DNA of 64,000 bases from positions 62,001 through 126,000 of the forward strand of contig NZ_CP014671.1 of assembly GCF_001697225.1 (NCBI RefSeq), in the 5' to 3' direction. Source of the DNA: Immundisolibacter cernigliae (GTDB taxonomy: Bacteria > Pseudomonadota > Gammaproteobacteria > Immundisolibacterales > Immundisolibacteraceae). Numbering within the stretch: the first letter of the stretch is position 1; each line of letters opens with the position of its first letter. Shown piece after piece: positions 9,232 to 25,955 of this stretch. A program made the translations under genes and the position numbers. The notes below the pieces were generated by a model. It did not search any database and was not told the DNA's origin. It worked only from the letters and a program-made list of their open reading frames with translations.

Positions 9232-10365
9232 TCAGGCAGCCTCCAGCGTAAGTTCTCGATAAAAGCGCAGCAGGTCGGCCACTTCCGGCGCCCGCTTGGT
9301 GGCGACAGCGTGGGCACGAATCTGCGCCAGCAGCTGTCCGGCCGCGGTGGGCTCAAGCGCAATGCCGAGCGCGGCATAGGCGGCGCGCACCGCGTTGCCG
9401 CCGGAATGCTTGCCGAGCACGGTGCGGTGGCTGCGGGCAAGTTCTGCCGGGTCGAAGCCCTGGTAGTTGGCGGCGTGCTTGATCAGGCCATCGACGTGGA
9501 TGCCGGCCTCATGGGTGAACACCCACTCGCCGACGATGCTCTTGCCGGCCGCCACCGGCCGCCCGGACGCGGTCGCCACCAGTGCCGACAGCATCGGCAG
9601 GCGGTGGCTGTCGACGCCGGTATCGATGCCGTACACGTGGCGCAGGGCCATCACGGCCTCTTCCAGCGGCGCATTGCCGGCGCGCTCGCCCAGGCCATTG
9701 ACCGTTGTGTTTATGTGCGTGGCGCCGGCACGCACGGCGGCCAGCGTGTTGGCGGTAGCCAGCCCCAGATCGTCGTGGGCGTGCATCTCGATGTCCAGAT
9801 CGACCGCCGCGCGCAGGCGGGCGATGCGCTCGTAGGTGCCGAACGGGTCGAGCACGCCCAGCGTGTCGGCAAAGCGCAGCCGGCAGGCGCCCGCCGCGGC
9901 AGCCGTTTCCGCCACGCGCAGCAGGAAATCGGTATCGGCGCGCGAGGCATCCTCGGCGCCCACGCACACCCTGAATCCGGCATCCAGCCCGGCCTTCACG
10001 TAGCGTTCCACCTGTCCGAGCGCCCAGGCCCGGTCGCGACCCAGCTTGTGGGCGAGGTGAATGTCCGACACCGGGATCGACAGGTTGACGAGGTCCACCC
10101 TGCAGGCACGGGTCGCGGCCAGATCCTGCGGCTGCATGCGACCCCAGACCATCAATTGCGGACCCAGCTGCAGGGCAGCGACGGCCTCGATGGTCTCGCG
10201 CTCGGCGCCGCCCATTACCGGAATGCCGATTTCGAGTTCCGGCACGCCGGCAGCGGCCAGTGCGCGGGCGATGGCGAGTTTTTCCCCGACACTGAACGCA
10301 ACCCCGGCGGTCTGCTCGCCGTCGCGCAGCGTGGTGTCGTTGACGATGACAGTGGCAGTGGACAT
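9232..10365 (-). CDS. nifV: Homocitrate synthase NifV
   Basis: 377 residues of the DRE-TIM metallolyase family. The N-terminal [16 protein letters not shown] gives the catalytic Arg-Asp and metal Asp. [19 protein letters not shown], the [17 protein letters not shown] metal-binding His-x-His strand and a [13 protein letters not shown] loop follow. NifV condenses acetyl-CoA with 2-oxoglutarate to give R-homocitrate, the organic ligand of the nitrogenase iron-molybdenum cofactor. It is the first gene of the operon and is preceded by a sigma-54 promoter (10401-10415) and a NifA-type upstream site (10508-10523), which favours NifV over a lysine or isopropylmalate pathway enzyme. Confidence 0.93.
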
Positions 10366-17835: not shown

Positions 17836-18643
17836 AGGCCGCGTCGACGTCGATGGCGGCTGTCTGCATTACCGGCGCGAGGGCCGGGGCGAGACGCTGG
17901 TGCTGGTGCACGGCTTCGGCCTGGACCACCGCGTGTGGGCGCCGCAGTGGCCGGCGCTGGTCGAATCCTTCGACCTCATCAGCTACGACCTGCGCGGCTT
18001 TGGGCGTTCCAGCCTGCCCGCTGAGGCGCCCTATGCTCACCACGAGGATCTGCGCGCCCTGCTGGATGCGCTCAATATCGACCGCGCGCACCTGATCGGC
18101 CATTCGCTGGGCGGCGGCATCGCCGCCAGCTTTGCCGTTGCCTATCCGGCGCGCACCGGCCGCGTGGTGCTGTCCGCCCCGCTGCTGCGCGGCTACACGC
18201 AACTTGGCGAGCTGATGGCGCTGCTCAAGAGCGTCTGGCAGATCGCTGCCCGGGATGGCCTGGACGCCGCCCGCAGCGCATGGCTGAACGCATCGCTGTT
18301 CGCCCCGACCCTGCAGACGCCGGCCGGCCGGGCCCTGCTCACCCAGATCATGGCCGACTACTCCGGCTGGCACTGGCAACACCGCGACCCGGAAACGGGC
18401 CTGGAACCGCCGCTGGCGCAACGTCTGCACGAACTGCTGGCGCCCACGCTGGTACTGGTCGGCACGCGCGACCTGCCGGATTTCGTCCACATGGGCGAAG
18501 CGCTGGCCGCGCAGGCGCCAAATGCGCACCTGGAGCTGTTGCCGGACCTGGGCCACGGGCCGTCCGTCGAAGACGCGGCGCTGTTCAATGCGCGCGTGCT
18601 GGCGTTCCTGCGCACGCGGCAAGCAAGCTCGGAAATACCCTAA
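17816..18643 (+). CDS. Alpha/beta hydrolase
   Basis: 275 residues. The oxyanion strand VLVHGFGLDHRVW, the nucleophile elbow IGHSLGGG, an acid in the GTRDLPDF segment and the catalytic His in DLGHGPSVED give a complete Ser-Asp-His triad. A helical lid lies between. There is no signal peptide, so it is cytoplasmic. It overlaps idi by 20 bp and is presumably co-transcribed. The substrate cannot be assigned: 3-oxoadipate enol-lactonase-like and other ester or C-C hydrolases share this pattern. It is the last gene before an accessory island. Confidence 0.8.
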   Translation: MPTAPTEGRVDVDGGCLHYRREGRGETLVLVHGFGLDHRVWAPQWPALVESFDLISYDLRGFGRSSLPAEAPYAHHEDLRALLDALNIDRAHLIGHSLGGGIAASFAVAYPARTGRVVLSAPLLRGYTQLGELMALLKSVWQIAARDGLDAARSAWLNASLFAPTLQTPAGRALLTQIMADYSGWHWQHRDPETGLEPPLAQRLHELLAPTLVLVGTRDLPDFVHMGEALAAQAPNAHLELLPDLGHGPSVEDAALFNARVLAFLRTRQASSEIP

Positions 18644-18798
18644 AACCAGGTAGGCGTTTGCCGCGATGCAGAATCGACGGTGGGCGACCAATGACACCGC
18701 CGTGAAGGTCTCGGTGAAGACGTTCAAGTGACACAAATAAGGAGTACCGCACGTGCCCCGTCCGCTTCAATCAAGTCAAGCCAAGGAGGCGCAACGAA

Positions 18799-21700
18799 AT
18801 GACTGAGGGCGCACCCCTCATTCTCGACCTGCTCAACTACATCGAGCAGGTCGAGAAGCTGAAGACCAAACCTGCCTTCTGCGTCCCGGACGACTACTTC
18901 GTTGCCTACCAGCACGAACTCAAGGGGCTGCCAGAACTCCAGTTCAACCTGCAGGTGGAAGGCGATGACGTGTGGCTACGCATCCCTCGATTACGGGAAA
19001 TAGCGGCGCCGGACCTGGATGAGAAGCTCGAACCCTGGGTCACGTTACCGAAAAGCCCAGAGAAGAGCCCGGAGATCAAGGGAGAGGCCGTGACCTATGA
19101 CGGCCAGCGTGAAGTCGCGCGGGCGCAGTTGACGGACCACCCGGAAATCCAAGAACTCTTTGACTGGTACGTCGAGAACCAATGGGAGCCCTGGGCGGCA
19201 GCCGAGCGCCCGCGGCGCAAAACCATCGCTCGATACAACAAGCTTTTTTCGCTGCAGCAGGCCATCGCATCGGAGGGCGCCGAGACGCCGCTCGAACTGG
19301 TCTGGGGCATTGGCTACGCGGCGTGGAAGAAGGAAGGTTTCGCGACGCCGCTGAAGCATCCATTGCTGGTGCAATCCTGCGAAATTGCGCTCAACGAGAA
19401 GACCTTCGACCTTGAGGTTCGTCCTCGCGATGTCGAGCCGCGTCTTGAGGCGGACTGCTACGCGGCGATGGAGTTGCCCGGCGTGCGACAACTGGAGGCG
19501 TATTGGCGCAGCGCCCTGGACACCGGTGCCCTGGACACCGGCGCCCATCGCGTCAATCCATTCGAGGCATCAACGTTTGATGGCACGCTCAAGGCCGCGG
19601 TCGGCTATCTCGACCCCACCGGCGCTTACGAGGTCAGGACCGACGATGTAACGCCACCGACGCCCAGTGACAAGCTCAAGATTACGAACACCTGGGTTCT
19701 ATTCGGTCGCAAACGTTCTGGCGACATCTTCCTTGAGGACATCCGACGCCTGAAGAAGTCGGTCGAGGAAGCCACGGAATTGCCGAACGTCATTCGCAGC
19801 TTTGTCGAGCGCGGTGACAACACTGTTCGAGTTCGTCCGGAGCAGCCATTCCGTGGCCTGTCGTCCAGCGACAGCCCATCAGGCGCCTTCGAACTGTATT
19901 TCCCGATGGCCTACAACGACGAGCAGGTCGCCATCGTCCAGAAGCTCGCGAACAATGACGGCGTTGTCGTTCAAGGCCCCCCGGGCACGGGCAAAACCCA
20001 CACGATTGCCAACGTCATCTGTCACTACCTGGCCCAAGGCAAGCGAGTCCTGGTGACGGCCAAGAGCGAGTCAGCCCTGGCCGTGCTGCAGGACAAACTT
20101 CCCGAACGCATTCGACCGCTCAGCGTCGCGCTGCTATCGGATGAGCGCGATGGTATGAAGCAGTTCGAGCACTCCATCCAGACGATTGCGTCGAGCGTCG
20201 CGGCCCTCAACCCAACCCACGCCTCGGCTGTCATCGCGGCGGCCGAGGAGAAGCTGAACCAGCTCCACGCCAAAATTGCCCATGTGGACCACACCGTCGC
20301 CGACTATGCGGGCAAGCACATGCGCAACTACTCATTCCAGGGCAAGGAGGTAACGCCGGAAGAGATGGCCAAACTGGTGCTCGACCATGCAGAGGAGCAT
20401 CAGTGGTTCGATGACGCGCCGCCCCCGACGCAGGATGGCGTGCTGCCCTTCGACGACGCTGACATCTGCGCACTTCGGCAAGCTCGCATCAAGGTTGGTA
20501 AGAATCTGGTCTACCTTGGGTGTTCACTGCCAGCCCAGGACGAGTTCCCCTCGTGGTCGGACTTGCTCGGGCTGCATCGAGACCTTGTCAAGGCCAAGTC
20601 CATCGACGACAGCGTGACCCAAGGCAACATTCTTGGGCTGGTCGATACGCGGCTGGAAACCTTCGAGAAGGCGCAGGCGCTGCTCAAGTTCCTCGAGGAC
20701 CGCCAAGCGCTCATGGCAAAGGTGGCTGGCGCACGAAGGCCCTGGCTCGACGAGTTGGGCAAGCGCATTGCAGACACGCGGCAGGGCGATCCGGCACTCC
20801 ATGCCCTGCTCGCCATCTGCGGCGACGTGCGTCACCTTGAGCAACGACGTCTCGAGTTGCTGGCCACAGCGGTGGACGTTCCCGCCGATGCCGAACGGCA
20901 CAAGGACTTCACAGAGGCCGTCGGCCGTTTGGTTGCCGGCAAGAGCGCGTTTGCACTGCCCTTCGGCCAGAGCGAGGCGCGCAAGATGGTCGCCGCGGTC
21001 ACCGTCCTTGGCATTCCACCGGCATCCAAGGGTGACTGGGAGCTAGCCCAACAAACACTCGCTTGGCGCACTGAGGCCCGCAAGGCCGTGGCACGGTGGA
21101 CAGCACTGTCCGGTGAGTTCGGGCTGGAGGCGCTCGACGCGAACCTGGATGCCGCCTTCAAGCAGGTGATGTCTTGGCAGGCGAGCATTGAGGCCGTGCG
21201 GCATCTGACCATCGTGTTCGACGCCAGTCTGCACACACGGCTTGAAGAAGTCTTCGGCAAAACGACCGCCAACCGGATGTGGGACGGAGGCGAGGGTTTC
21301 GTGACTACGGCCTCCGCCAGCCTGCACGCACACGTCGACAAGGGGCGCCTGGCCTACGCGATGACACGGGTTCAGGAGTTGGTGCGAAAGCTCGAGGGCC
21401 GCAGTGGAAGCATCGTCGATGAATTGCGATGTTTCCTGACCGAGTCCCTGGGCGGGGCATCGACCGACGAGTCGGCCTTGCAGGCCACTTGGCTCGCGTT
21501 ACAGGCCGAGTTGTCTCACCTGACCACCCTTCGGCCGGCGTTCGAGGACATCGCGCGAGTGGCTGACGCCATTGAGGCGGCCGGCGCCGTTCAGTGGGCA
21601 AATCGCGTACGGACGCAGGTCGCAGCCTCGGACCTCGACGCGATAGTTCCGGTGAAGTGGCGCGAGGCTTGGAACTGGCGACTGGCCGTGACGTTTCTGG

Positions 21701-23292
21701 ACCGTATCGACGGACACCAGAGGCTGCGCGAGCTGTTCGAAGAGCGTAAGGCGCTAACCACCGCGCTGGCGCGCACGTACCAAGACCTGGTGGCAGAGAA
21801 AACCTGGCTGGGCGTGTTCAACAACTCACCGGACAGCGTGCGGCAGGCGCTGCAGACCTATCTGAACGCAGTGCAGGCAATGGGTGGCGGCAATGGTGTG
21901 AGGGCCATCCGGCACCGCAGGACTGCACGCAACGCCATGCAGCGAGCCTACCAAGCGGTTCCTTGTTGGGTATTACCACAGTGGCGCGTATCCGAAACCA
22001 TTCCAGCTGAAGTGGGCCTGTTTGATCTCGTTGTGATCGATGAGGCTTCGCAATCGGACATCTGGGCACTGCCAGCGCTATTGCGGGGCAAGAAACTACT
22101 GGTCGTCGGTGACCACAAACAGGTCTCGCCGTTGGCCATAGGCACGGCGGAAGAGAAAATCAAGGAGCTCAGCCGCCGATTCCTGGCCAACCAGCCTCAC
22201 GGCTCGGAGATGACTCCAGGCAAGTCCATCTACGATCTTGCACGCGTGGTGTTCGCAGGCAACTCCGTGATGCTTAAAGAACACTTCCGCTGCGTGCCAG
22301 CCATCATCGAATTCTCGAACCGGGAGTTCTACGAGAACGACATCCGGGCCTTGCGCGTTCCGAAGGCGAACGAGCGCCTCGACCCGCCGCTAGTTGATGT
22401 GTTCGTCAAGGGCGGTTTCCGCCAAGGGGATGTGAACCGTCCCGAAGCCAAGGCAATCGTCGACGAAATCGAAGCCATCCTGGCCGATCCCCAGTTCGAC
22501 GGGCGCAGCATCGGCGTCGTGACGCTGCTCGGTACCGCCCAGGCGGCCCACATCCACGAGCTCGTGAGCGAGCGCATTTCGCCGGTCGACGTCGTGGGTC
22601 GCCAGATTGCGATCGGTCCGCCGCCTGTATTCCAGGGGCGTGAGCGCGACATCATGCTGGTGTCAATGGTTCTTGGCCCCGGGAACCGGGCTGCTTTGGA
22701 CCGCCCCGACATGAACCAGCGTTTCAACGTGGCGCTGTCGCGTGCCCGTGACCGCATGTACCTGTTCCGTTCGGTGGTTGAAACCGACTTCCAACCGAAT
22801 TCCCTCAACAGCCGGGTGATGCGCCATTTCAAGCAGCCGTTCCGACAGGACGTACGCAGGGTCCAATCGCTGCGCGAAAAATGCGAGTCGGGGTTCGAGT
22901 TGGAGATGTTCGACGAGCTTGTCAAGCGCGGATTCCGCGTCGAGCCGCAAGTGCCCAGTGGGGGCTATCGTATCGACTTTGTCGTCGAGGGCAACGAGGG
23001 CCGCCGCCTGGCCATCGAATGTGATGGCGACCGCTTCCACGGACCTGGACAGTGGCACGACGACATGGCACGTCAACGGGTTTTAGAGCGTGCCGGCTGG
23101 ACGTTCTGGCGCTGTTTCGCATCGAGCTTCGTGCGTCGCCGCGATGCGATCATCAACGAATTGCTGCAAACCTTGGAGCGCATGGGGATCGAGCCGCTCG
23201 GCTCAGAGTCTGCCGACAACACCGCATGGGTGCATTACAAGGAAGTCGACCCGTACGGCGTGGAAGAACAACGCGAAGTGGCGTTGGAATGA
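18799..23292 (+). CDS. Large superfamily 1 helicase fused to a Vsr/MTES_1575-like nuclease
   Basis: 1,497 residues. An N-terminal region (1-360) of unknown fold precedes an SF1 (AAA_11/AAA_12, Upf1-like) motor: Walker A GPPGTGKT at 393-400, DEAS (motif II) at 1081-1084, GDHKQVSP (motif III) from 1104, HFRCVPAIIEF and ALSRARDRMYLF. About 650 residues of helical insert separate Walker A from motif II. The C-terminus is a restriction-endonuclease fold with Asp1393 (YRIDFVV) and Glu1407/Asp1409 (AIECDGD), as in REase_MTES_1575/Vsr nucleases. Such architecture is typical of phage- or plasmid-defence proteins. A strong AAGGAGG site precedes the ATG. The next gene overlaps by ATGA. G+C content is lower than the flanking genes. 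Confidence 0.85.
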   Translation: MTEGAPLILDLLNYIEQVEKLKTKPAFCVPDDYFVAYQHELKGLPELQFNLQVEGDDVWLRIPRLREIAAPDLDEKLEPWVTLPKSPEKSPEIKGEAVTYDGQREVARAQLTDHPEIQELFDWYVENQWEPWAAAERPRRKTIARYNKLFSLQQAIASEGAETPLELVWGIGYAAWKKEGFATPLKHPLLVQSCEIALNEKTFDLEVRPRDVEPRLEADCYAAMELPGVRQLEAYWRSALDTGALDTGAHRVNPFEASTFDGTLKAAVGYLDPTGAYEVRTDDVTPPTPSDKLKITNTWVLFGRKRSGDIFLEDIRRLKKSVEEATELPNVIRSFVERGDNTVRVRPEQPFRGLSSSDSPSGAFELYFPMAYNDEQVAIVQKLANNDGVVVQGPPGTGKTHTIANVICHYLAQGKRVLVTAKSESALAVLQDKLPERIRPLSVALLSDERDGMKQFEHSIQTIASSVAALNPTHASAVIAAAEEKLNQLHAKIAHVDHTVADYAGKHMRNYSFQGKEVTPEEMAKLVLDHAEEHQWFDDAPPPTQDGVLPFDDADICALRQARIKVGKNLVYLGCSLPAQDEFPSWSDLLGLHRDLVKAKSIDDSVTQGNILGLVDTRLETFEKAQALLKFLEDRQALMAKVAGARRPWLDELGKRIADTRQGDPALHALLAICGDVRHLEQRRLELLATAVDVPADAERHKDFTEAVGRLVAGKSAFALPFGQSEARKMVAAVTVLGIPPASKGDWELAQQTLAWRTEARKAVARWTALSGEFGLEALDANLDAAFKQVMSWQASIEAVRHLTIVFDASLHTRLEEVFGKTTANRMWDGGEGFVTTASASLHAHVDKGRLAYAMTRVQELVRKLEGRSGSIVDELRCFLTESLGGASTDESALQATWLALQAELSHLTTLRPAFEDIARVADAIEAAGAVQWANRVRTQVAASDLDAIVPVKWREAWNWRLAVTFLDRIDGHQRLRELFEERKALTTALARTYQDLVAEKTWLGVFNNSPDSVRQALQTYLNAVQAMGGGNGVRAIRHRRTARNAMQRAYQAVPCWVLPQWRVSETIPAEVGLFDLVVIDEASQSDIWALPALLRGKKLLVVGDHKQVSPLAIGTAEEKIKELSRRFLANQPHGSEMTPGKSIYDLARVVFAGNSVMLKEHFRCVPAIIEFSNREFYENDIRALRVPKANERLDPPLVDVFVKGGFRQGDVNRPEAKAIVDEIEAILADPQFDGRSIGVVTLLGTAQAAHIHELVSERISPVDVVGRQIAIGPPPVFQGRERDIMLVSMVLGPGNRAALDRPDMNQRFNVALSRARDRMYLFRSVVETDFQPNSLNSRVMRHFKQPFRQDVRRVQSLREKCESGFELEMFDELVKRGFRVEPQVPSGGYRIDFVVEGNEGRRLAIECDGDRFHGPGQWHDDMARQRVLERAGWTFWRCFASSFVRRRDAIINELLQTLERMGIEPLGSESADNTAWVHYKEVDPYGVEEQREVALE

Positions 23293-23858
23293 CCCGTCCC
23301 TTGACGCGCCACACCATTGCGGAACTGGAGAAGTTGTTCGCCTCGTCAAAGGAAGACGACAGAGTACTTGAACATCTTGCGCACGAGCTCCAGTTTCGCC
23401 AGGCACCGCGAGCAATTGAGCTGCTGCGAGAGGTTCAAGCGGCCTTGTCGGAGACAGAACCGTCGGCGGGGAAACCGAGGTTGGACACTACCGGTCCGGT
23501 GCAGCATCGGCTGGATATGGGAGAGGCTGCGTCCTCTGGGATACCGCCGACGCCTGCGGTCAAACCTATTGCGTCTGGTGGGGCCAGCGACTCTATGAAG
23601 CTGCCGGTCGCCCTGGCCACGCATCCAAATCGCCCAGCACTCACGATGACCGTTGAAGACGCCTACAAGATACTCGGGGTGACGCAGACCTCTACATGGG
23701 AATCAATCGAGCAGATACGACGCCAATTGGTTCAGCGGGCGCATCCGGAGCACCTTGCGCCCATGAGCAAGGAGAAACGTGCGCAGACGCAGGTCGAGGC
23801 CAAGCGGGTCAATGCGGCCTATTCAGTGCTGATACAGCACAGAACACGGCACTCGTAA
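23289..23858 (+). CDS. J-domain-like partner protein of the helicase-nuclease
   Basis: 189 residues. The start overlaps the helicase stop (ATGA), so it is translationally coupled. The N-terminus (HTIAELEKLFASSKEDDRVL, then ELQFRQAPRAIELLREV) is a small helical module; a Pro/Ser-rich linker (about 60-115) follows. The C-terminus resembles a J domain: DAYKILGVTQTSTWESIEQI, RRQLVQRAHPEHL, and an AKRVNAAYSVL helix. The HPD tripeptide that activates Hsp70 is HPE here, so chaperone stimulation may be altered. Function unknown; tight coupling suggests it works with the helicase-nuclease. Confidence 0.75.
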   Translation: MTRPLTRHTIAELEKLFASSKEDDRVLEHLAHELQFRQAPRAIELLREVQAALSETEPSAGKPRLDTTGPVQHRLDMGEAASSGIPPTPAVKPIASGGASDSMKLPVALATHPNRPALTMTVEDAYKILGVTQTSTWESIEQIRRQLVQRAHPEHLAPMSKEKRAQTQVEAKRVNAAYSVLIQHRTRHS

Positions 23859-23907
23859 ATCTTCGGTAGCGGGACATGGGTTGCTCGGGTTCTGCGTGAT
23901 AGTCCGC

Positions 23908-23931
23908 GTGGGCACACTGCGCTTTGCCCAC
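23908..23931. repeat. Short inverted repeat of intergenic-element type
   Basis: GTGGGCA (23908-23914) and TGCCCAC (23925-23931) around ACTGCGCT. The 'GGGCAAAGCGCA' theme resembles short palindromic elements scattered between genes of gammaproteobacteria. The surrounding 212-bp gap (23859-24070) shows no gene. Confidence 0.5.
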
Positions 23932-24070
23932 CCTACAGGAGGCTGGATCGGCGACGAGCGCGGATCCCAGATCAGTGATCCCCATCCCAAACACGCGATT
24001 GTCATGGTTGTTCGCCGTCTAACGCATGAATTAAGCCGACTCGCGAAACGGGTTCGGCCTGAATGAATTA

Positions 24071-24535
24071 TTAGTCATCAATCCACACGACCTCACGGAT
24101 TATGGCGTCGTTGGCTACCCGGCCAAGAATGACATGCGCTGTGTGAGCATACCCAAGCTCATGGCGAAAGGCGCGAAGCTTACGCTCATCGTATGAAATG
24201 TCCTCTCCAGGTTTCTTGAGCTCGAGCACGACATGGTTGTTTACGTCCGTGTTGCGCTCATGCACCAGGATGTCAGGAAATACGGTTGTTGCGCGAATTT
24301 CGCGATCTAGAGCTTTGCGAGGTGGCAGCCTGAGCCTTTTTGGATCTCCAAAATGGCGGTTGTACTCGCAGTCCACGGTAAGCGGTGGCTGGATAGCGTC
24401 GGAAAGTGCCATGTAATGCGCCAGACGATACGAGAGCGAACGCTCTGTAACATCAAGGTCAAGCAATGCATAGTCGTTCTGCACGAGTAGATCAATTGCA
24501 GAATTAACTAAGGTGGCTGCTTCTTCTCGGGTCAT
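24071..24535 (-). CDS. PD-(D/E)XK nuclease-like protein, horizontally acquired
   Basis: 154 residues from ATG 24535 (a TTG two codons upstream is possible). A PD-(D/E)XK-like core is visible: VFPDILVHERN gives the Asp, and VVLELKKPGE gives Glu-x-Lys. N-terminal helices (REEAATLVNSAIDLLVQ) and the YRLAHYMALSDAI segment precede it. The gene is clearly A+T-richer than its neighbours. An IS element is inserted only 21 bp upstream of the start, so the original promoter was cut away or displaced. The exact role is unknown: type II restriction subunits and orphan defence nucleases are options. Confidence 0.65.
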   Translation of the reverse strand: MTREEAATLVNSAIDLLVQNDYALLDLDVTERSLSYRLAHYMALSDAIQPPLTVDCEYNRHFGDPKRLRLPPRKALDREIRATTVFPDILVHERNTDVNNHVVLELKKPGEDISYDERKLRAFRHELGYAHTAHVILGRVANDAIIREVVWIDD

Positions 24536-24556
24536 CGGCAATATTGCTATTTATAA

Positions 24557-24560
24557 CTAA
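24557..24560. repeat. Target-site duplication CTAA (left)
   Basis: Directly precedes the left terminal repeat; the matching right copy is at 25781-25784. Confidence 0.85.
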
Positions 24561-25780
24561 GGAAACGCTGATTTATTCCCTCCCGTTGGAGGCATGAGAC
24601 CTTGGTCCTGAGACAATGTGACCTGGTCCGCAGCGGTGGTGAGCAGACGTCATGCAAACGAGCTTTTCCGACCTCGAGTACGCCGGCAAGAAGAAGCAGA
24701 CGCGCCGCGAGCGCTTCCTGGCGCAGCTGCAGGCGGTGACGCCGTGGGCGCAGCTGGAGGCGGCGCTGGCGCCGTTCTACCCGGCCGGCAAGGGCCCGGG
24801 CCGCCCGCCGCTGGGGCTGTCGCGCATGCTGCGCATGTACGTGGCGCAGCAGTGCTTTGGGCTGTCGGACGAGGGCATCGAGGACGCCGTGTACGACAGC
24901 CACGCCATCCGCTGCTTCATCGGCATCGACCTGGCCCGCGAGGCGGCGCCGGATGCGACCACGCTGCTGAAGTTCCGCCGCCTGCTGGAAGATCAGGGTC
25001 TGAGCCGGGTGATCTTCGAGACGATTCGCGATCACCTGGCCCGCCAGGGCCTGCTGCTGCGTGAGGGCACCCTCGTGGATGCGACGCTGATCGCCGCCCC
25101 GCCGTCGACCAAGAACCGCGACCGGGCGCGCGATCCGGACATGCATCAGGCCAAGAAGGGGAACCAGTGGCACTTTGGCATGAAGGCGCACATCGGGGTC
25201 GACCTGGACTCGGGGCTGGTGCACACGGTGCTGACCACGCCGGCCAACGTCAACGACGTGACCCAGGCGCACGCCCTGCTGCACGGGCAGGAAACGGACG
25301 CGCTGGGCGATGCCGGCTACCAGGGCGTAGCCAAGCGCCCGGAGAATCGGGACACGCCGGTCACCTGGCACGTGGCGCTGCGCCCGGGCGTGCGCCGGGC
25401 CCTGCCCGATGACGCGCTGGGCCGCCTGCAGGAACGGATCGAACAGGTCAAGGCGAGCCTGCGGGCCAAGGTCGAGCATCCGTTTCACATCATCAAGAAC
25501 CTGTTCAAGCACCGCAAGGCGCGTTACCGGGGGCTGGCCAAGAACCAGGCGCAGCTGTTCACGCTGTTCGGCCTGGCCAACGTGGTGATTGCCGGCTGGC
25601 GCCTTCGGGCGCGGCACACCCTCCGTGCGTCCTGAGGGAGCCCAAAACCGGAATATCCGGCCAGAACACGCACATTGGCCCGATCCACACCCGAAAACGG
25701 GCCGTTTTTCCCCAGGGGCGGTCACGCGTCAGCGCCGTCATGTCCATAGCGCTGGTTTCGGGGGATTGATCAGCGTTTCC
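24561..25780 (+). mobile_element. IS5-family insertion sequence, complete, 1,220 bp
   Basis: The left end GGAAACGCTGATTTATTCCC and the right end, read inward as GGAAACGCTGATCAATCCCC, form imperfect terminal inverted repeats with the first 12 bases identical. Both ends are flanked by the 4-bp target duplication CTAA (24557-24560 and 25781-25784), matching the YTAR target of the IS5 group. One intact transposase gene fills most of it. The last 145 bp after the transposase are non-coding. Confidence 0.93.
24652..25635 (+). CDS. IS5-family transposase
   Basis: 327 residues, a DDE enzyme. The N-terminal DUF772-like part has RKKQT-type basic residues, 'YPAGKGPGRPPLGLSRMLRM' and ECFGLS-type QQCFGLSDEGIEDAVYDS. 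Catalytic acids are visible at LVDATLIAAPPST (first Asp), DALGDAGYQG (second Asp) and KVEHPFHIIKNLFKHRK (Glu, in the Y/H-rich C-terminal motif). The gene is uninterrupted and the element has matching ends and a target duplication, so it may still be active. A 392-codon reading frame on the opposite strand is an antisense artefact. Confidence 0.93.
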   Translation: MQTSFSDLEYAGKKKQTRRERFLAQLQAVTPWAQLEAALAPFYPAGKGPGRPPLGLSRMLRMYVAQQCFGLSDEGIEDAVYDSHAIRCFIGIDLAREAAPDATTLLKFRRLLEDQGLSRVIFETIRDHLARQGLLLREGTLVDATLIAAPPSTKNRDRARDPDMHQAKKGNQWHFGMKAHIGVDLDSGLVHTVLTTPANVNDVTQAHALLHGQETDALGDAGYQGVAKRPENRDTPVTWHVALRPGVRRALPDDALGRLQERIEQVKASLRAKVEHPFHIIKNLFKHRKARYRGLAKNQAQLFTLFGLANVVIAGWRLRARHTLRAS

Positions 25781-25795
25781 CTAAGGAAACGCTGA
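25781..25795. repeat. Right target duplication followed by a second IS-end remnant
   Basis: After the right CTAA comes GGAAACGCTGA (25785-25795), identical to the first 11 bases of the IS end. This suggests that the element inserted next to a solo end left by an earlier copy, or that a neighbouring copy was deleted. Confidence 0.6.
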
Positions 25796-25807
25796 GAAAA
25801 AACCTGA

Positions 25808-25861
25808 TAGGAGCGCAGCTTCGCTGCGCGATGATCGCCCGGCGAAGCCGGGCTCCTACAG
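25808..25861. repeat. REP-like double palindrome, copy 2
   Basis: TAGGAGC, hairpin GCGCAGC-TTC-GCTGCGC, linker GATGATC, hairpin GCCCGGC-GAA-GCCGGGC, then GCTCCTA closing the outer stem. It is nearly identical to the element at 10881-10931; the differences lie in the loops and outer arms, as expected if stem structure is conserved. Confidence 0.85.
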
Positions 25862-25955
25862 TTTTTCGATGGCTCACATAACCAGCAGCGTACAGCCGCC
25901 GATCTTGGCAGCGCATCCCTGCGCTGCGTGAAACGCTGAATACTTCCGCGCTCCT

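Follow-up and report, generated by a model that had tools for sequence, protein, structure and literature searches.

A locus of Immundisolibacter cernigliae encodes a very large helicase-nuclease and, overlapping its end, a small protein with a J-like domain. It raises the question of whether the two form a defence system, whether such a system is already described, and what a J-like protein would do in it. We analysed a window of 64,000 nucleotides (contig NZ_CP014671.1, positions 62,001 to 126,000); I. cernigliae coordinates below count from its first letter. A preliminary description had reported a 1,497-residue SF1 protein overlapping a 189-residue protein by ATGA, and both frames were recovered at those lengths and are intact. 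The features of the locus are:

18644-18798, + strand: leader upstream of the helicase, 155 bp, with no room for a gene of ~66 codons
18799-23292, + strand: SF1B (UPF1/DNA2-type) helicase fused to a C-terminal MTES_1575 PD-(D/E)XK nuclease, 1497 aa, ATG start
helicase residues before Walker A: N-terminal region of ~370 aa, with strands and a 48-residue helix
helicase residues 393-400: Walker A, GPPGTGKT
helicase, between Walker A and motif II: insert of ~680 aa
helicase residues 1081-1084: motif II, DEAS
helicase residues 1366-1459: MTES_1575 nuclease domain (Pfam)
23289-23858, + strand: partner protein, 189 aa, overlapping the helicase frame by ATGA at 23289-23292
23289-23453, + strand: partner residues 1-55, N-terminal three-helix module (RPL..LExLF..L..ELxxRxxPRA..L..V)
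partner residues 56-118: disordered linker
23643-23855, + strand: partner residues 119-189, J-like domain, DjlA-type, HPD lost
24071-24541, - strand: orphan PD-Lambda-3_A-like (nuclease-like) protein in the same variable segment (PADLOC PD-Lambda-3_A, 2.5e-30)
24557-25783, + strand: IS element, with DDE_Tnp_1 transposase at 24652-25635 (Pfam)
24558-24580 and 25761-25783: terminal inverted repeats of the IS

The large protein has a Walker A motif, a DExx motif II, Pfam matches to AAA_11 (3.9e-20) and AAA_12 (1e-14) that constitute an SF1 core, and an arginine motif VI, which places it in SF1B (UPF1-like). The best solved relatives of this core are UPF1, SMUBP-2 and SEN1, and it is also related to DNA2. 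The insert between Walker A and motif II had been put at ~650 residues; it is real and somewhat longer, at the ~680 listed. The Vsr/MTES_1575-like nuclease noted earlier, with D1393, E1407 and D1409, was borne out, scoring 100.4 bits against a Pfam cut-off of 38.2 and showing the D...ExD catalytic residues of MTES_1575 PD-(D/E)XK nucleases. K399, E1082, D1393, E1407, D1409 and H1414 are invariant in an alignment of 15 homologues whose identity goes as low as 40%. Helicase dN/dS is ~0.05-0.1, and the value of ~0.05 between close relatives indicates strong purifying selection, so the reading frame is far from a chance one. The N-terminal 372 residues have a mean predicted pLDDT of 78 and gave no credible match to a solved fold; their pattern of strands and a long helix may be read, and only read, as a UPF1-like 1B barrel and stalk.

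Taken alone, such a helicase is not new. PDC-S37, a single-gene putative defence candidate in PADLOC, likewise combines an SF1 helicase with an MTES_1575-type nuclease, and its profile matches the I. cernigliae protein at 2.5e-68 (an E-value only, over two stretches, the best covering profile positions 710-1341 of 1550); helicase relatives at ~40% identity score similarly. PDCs are unvalidated candidates proposed through guilt by embedding (PMC12988326). ProA (NCBIfam NF058533) and Hhe (NF042953, PDLC02194) are of the same helicase-nuclease superfamily, but the I. cernigliae protein reaches only 261.7 bits against the curated ProA cut-off of 1500 and 170.6 bits against the Hhe cut-off of 2000, is smaller, has a partner, and lacks DUF4011, which Hhe requires, and DUF3320 in Pfam searches. 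Mokosh MkoA/MkoC share the SF1 core, and the partner's N-terminal module occurs in cis in L059, an MkoC-like protein, and in relatives of L059; the I. cernigliae helicase has no NERD or PLD by Pfam and an MTES_1575 nuclease instead, and so falls outside Mokosh. The giant HEPN-transglutaminase-SF1 helicase-Vsr nuclease-wHTH proteins with an MTES_1575-type nuclease, predicted to attack invading DNA (Anantharaman et al., 2013; PMC3710099), share the helicase and nuclease families, whereas HEPN, transglutaminase and wHTH were not found by Pfam in the I. cernigliae protein.

The preliminary description had called the system a candidate for an undescribed one and allowed that it might already bear a name. 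For the pairing the first part stands: the J-partnered helicase-nuclease architecture is in no profile library searched, and in the literature searched we found no defence system in which a helicase is paired with a J-domain protein. It does not stand for the helicase by itself, since profile matches assign it to a superfamily already known to include the candidate PDC-S37 as well as Hhe and ProA, which are named antiphage proteins. What is new here, as far as sequence comparison goes, is the J-partnered architecture within that superfamily of defence proteins and candidates; the PDC-S37 model has a single gene, whereas in the I. cernigliae clade a J-like partner is obligate and is frequently joined by a ribbon-helix-helix-like gene. 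In the literature searched, PDC-S37 was not found by name, nor was the origin of the NCBIfam name ProA.

Whether the two genes are always paired had been posed as the obvious check. A scan of genome contigs gave 20 helicase relatives, 14 at 62-80% identity to the I. cernigliae protein and six at ~40%. Thirteen of the 14 extend past the 3′ end of the helicase gene, and a partner homologue lies directly behind it in all 13; the remaining one (L014) ends before the partner position. A Variovorax plasmid (L022, helicase 74% identical) also has the partner, which is absent from the plasmid's gene table. The partner is thus directly downstream in 15 of the 15 clade members whose DNA can be read beyond the helicase (I. 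cernigliae, L002-L013, L015 and L022), across helicase identities of 58-95%. Helicase and partner distances are correlated (Mantel r=0.80, p=0.0002). A profile search of 369 genomes of the class found no full-length partner, with both domains, other than that of I. cernigliae; the other matches were DjlA-like J domains or helicases bearing the N-terminal part. The ~40% relatives (L016-L021) have no separate partner where their downstream DNA is readable, and the same is true of further relatives at that distance. Within the clade, the helicase-nuclease and J-like partner are a conserved, obligate unit.

What kind of protein is the partner? Its J-like C-terminus, as described earlier, matches Pfam DnaJ at 32.3 bits (cut-off 27.8, residues 124-187), and AlphaFold predicts helices for the N-terminal module (pLDDT ~90), disorder in the linker and, with pLDDT ~97, a J fold. 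The top solved matches are J-domain structures, with probability ~1 but E-values >0.1. The partner thus has the fold of a J protein without the HPD tripeptide; it shares that fold with DjlA and DnaJ proteins and differs from them in the loss of HPD, in its new N-terminal module and in having no TerB, membrane or substrate-binding domain. Mean identity among partners is 54% for the N-terminal module, 46% for the J domain and 20% for the linker, and partner dN/dS of 0.2-0.4 indicates weaker, yet clear, constraint than on the helicase.

The preliminary description had singled out HPE in place of HPD. The tripeptide is really there in I. cernigliae; as a family hallmark it fails, since the site is decaying and takes several forms, of which HPE is one. 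HPE recurs in L013 and L015, and the other partners have HPA (L002, L008), HPS (L003, L022), SPV (L004), QPD (L006), RPD (L009), SPA (L012) or HPD itself (L005, L007, L010, L011). HPD is therefore kept in four of 15 partners and lost in 11, with only the proline constant. At least three switches between HPD and non-HPD are required on the helicase tree, on which the placement of L023 is unreliable owing to a very long branch, and one switch separates copies whose helicases are 95% identical (L005, HPD; L006, QPD). In known J proteins, loss of HPD abolishes Hsp70 stimulation. Because HPD is not the rule and has changed repeatedly, the partner's J domain probably does not work as an Hsp70 co-chaperone, and Hsp70 stimulation is probably not what maintains it.

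The N-terminal module, overlooked in the preliminary description together with the ribbon-helix-helix-like gene found upstream in most relatives, has no Pfam family. Profile searches found it at the N-terminus of the following helicases:

L019:9710-14581: PDC-S37-type helicase, 1623 aa
L059:3814-7344: MkoC-like SF1 helicase
L060:907-3810: MkoC-like SF1 helicase
L068:8327-11812: MkoC-like SF1 helicase
L069:8137-10023: MkoC-like SF1 helicase
L070:3569-5383: UvrD-type helicase, adjoining a TIR gene

The profile matches mark the module as helicase-associated, occurring in cis with three other kinds of SF1 helicase, and as a candidate new domain family. No separate partner gene was found near the module-fused L019. 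Fusion to three helicase types is a Rosetta-stone sign that the free-standing module would bind its helicase, and hence that the partner would dock on the helicase through it.

A frame of ~66 codons precedes the helicase in nine clade loci (L002, L003, L005, L006, L010, L011, L015, L022 and, in part, L014), overlapping the helicase start by four bases in the complete cases. Its product has no Pfam match, and we call it ribbon-helix-helix-like from a reading of its sequence. The frame also precedes the helicases of the ~40% relatives L023, L090 and L091, so its association with the helicase is probably older than that of the J partner. DNA and profile comparison gave no significant match to a remnant of it in the I. 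cernigliae leader.

The surroundings agree with the island noted in the preliminary description. G+C at the locus is 0.59-0.63, against 0.65-0.70 across most of the flanking DNA, and both the nuclease and the IS reported nearby are present, as the PD-Lambda-3_A-like gene and the DDE_Tnp_1 element. The second gene of PD-Lambda-3 was not identified beside the former; the latter has 12 full-length copies in the genome. The I. cernigliae segment (18611-25911) is flanked by alpha/beta-hydrolase and aldehyde-dehydrogenase genes, and in a same-genus genome (L077, L078) this site is instead taken up by ~4.3 kb of other cargo, which includes a PDDEXK_4 nuclease and is bounded by ends of the same IS. 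A 43-bp REP-like repeat (GTCCGCGTGGGCACACTGCGCTTTGCCCACCCTAC-like) occurs at 23894-23936 and at L077:7973-8015, the L077 copy adjoining an apparent REP-associated transposase fragment.

Vertical inheritance in a housekeeping context, which would speak against a defence system, is not what the distribution looks like. Any helicase relative at all was found in just four of the 369 genomes of the class, and none in a same-genus genome. The helicases of L002, a betaproteobacterium, and L008, a Xanthomonas, are 95% identical. Some copies are plasmid-borne or have transposon or conjugation genes nearby, and L002 lies beside TnsB/TniQ-like genes. The pair has spread horizontally, with a sporadic distribution and a variable integration site. 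Viral contigs gave no close helicase relative, and phage records only weak, partial matches.

Genes of known systems clearly adjoin three of 15 clade members (a raw count): Wadjet JetA near L022 (5e-223), type I R-M near L013, and CBASS cyclases (placed by motif) with a GajB-like helicase near L015. No recognised defence gene was seen in several other clade neighbourhoods. A 32% relative on the Acinetobacter baumannii AYE plasmid p3ABAYE (L025:7764-12494) comes immediately after brxL of a type I BREX operon. Copies similar to this relative are common on Acinetobacter plasmids.

A role of the pair in antiviral or antiplasmid defence is likely. We lean, with some reserve, towards a mobile nucleic-acid interference module of two genes, three in many relatives, with the partner as a regulatory or adaptor subunit. 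The large protein would translocate on DNA that is foreign or damaged, or possibly on RNA, unwind it, and cut it with the C-terminal MTES_1575 nuclease. The small protein would be a dedicated subunit that attaches to the helicase by its N-terminal module. Its J-like domain, which in most copies would no longer serve Hsp70, would be an arm for protein contacts, sensing a trigger or holding the nuclease in check; the ribbon-helix-helix-like protein, where there is one, would probably be an autorepressor. We infer the docking, the sensing or restraint, the autoregulation and the antiphage or antiplasmid purpose. Several points weigh against such a module: some clade neighbourhoods have no recognised defence gene, the ~40% relatives do without the J protein, and a UPF1-like core could act on RNA. 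An extension that we hold only tentatively is a new kind of immune adaptor, in which a helicase-docking module is either part of various SF1 helicases or comes in trans on an Hsp70-independent pseudo-J domain, through which the helicase-nuclease is triggered or restrained.

Somewhat more doubtful than that extension is a partner that acts as an antitoxin-like inhibitor, holding the nuclease off until infection in an abortive-infection module. A small, fast-evolving protein translationally coupled to a conserved nuclease would suit such a role, and the logic has a counterpart in Hachiman HamAB, where helicase and nuclease form one immune machine and the nuclease is kept in check by the helicase subunit (PMC12278908). 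HamB is Hel308-like and the nuclease HamA a separate protein, and the likeness to the I. cernigliae pair is one of logic rather than of demonstrated homology. Against an inhibitor, the partner gene is downstream rather than upstream, and the ~40% relatives without a partner apparently tolerate the enzyme. It is unlikely that the helicase serves chromosomal DNA repair or recombination, or stabilises mobile elements, instead of defence: its kinship with UPF1, SMUBP-2 and DNA2 and the copies on plasmids or near transposon and conjugation genes would be at home there, but its absence from close relatives, its sporadic occurrence, its variable site and its defence neighbours are not.

Still less probable is action on RNA, by cleavage of phage transcripts or translation complexes, which the UPF1, SMUBP-2 and SEN1 likeness of the core would favour and the description of the MTES_1575/Vsr fold as a DNA endonuclease lineage (PMC3710099) disfavours. 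We give least credence to the view that the partner is a true Hsp40 co-chaperone, bringing in host DnaK so that the giant helicase or phage proteins are folded or remodelled. The Pfam DnaJ and DjlA-type similarity, the confidently predicted J fold and the four intact HPD copies are what one would expect of it, and the 11 losses, the repeated changes on the tree, the L005-L006 switch and the dependence of Hsp70 stimulation on HPD are what one would not.

Helicase-nuclease fusions are a large and mostly unvalidated share of the bacterial immune repertoire. As the obligate second component here is missed by annotation and by the single-gene PDC-S37 model, assays of the helicase by itself may come out falsely negative. 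The common N-terminal module is a previously unnamed link among several SF1 helicases. Recurrent HPD decay would exemplify a J domain recruited for an Hsp70-free job.

Two loci have features of their own. In Nitrosospira briensis Nsp8 (L013) the partner frame is interrupted (L013:14476-15113) and the helicase, starting near 10001, has an early stop, from decay of this copy or sequencing errors. Behind the helicase of L023, a ~40% relative, a GIY-YIG nuclease gene (L023:12687-13544) occupies the position that the J partner has in the I. cernigliae clade.
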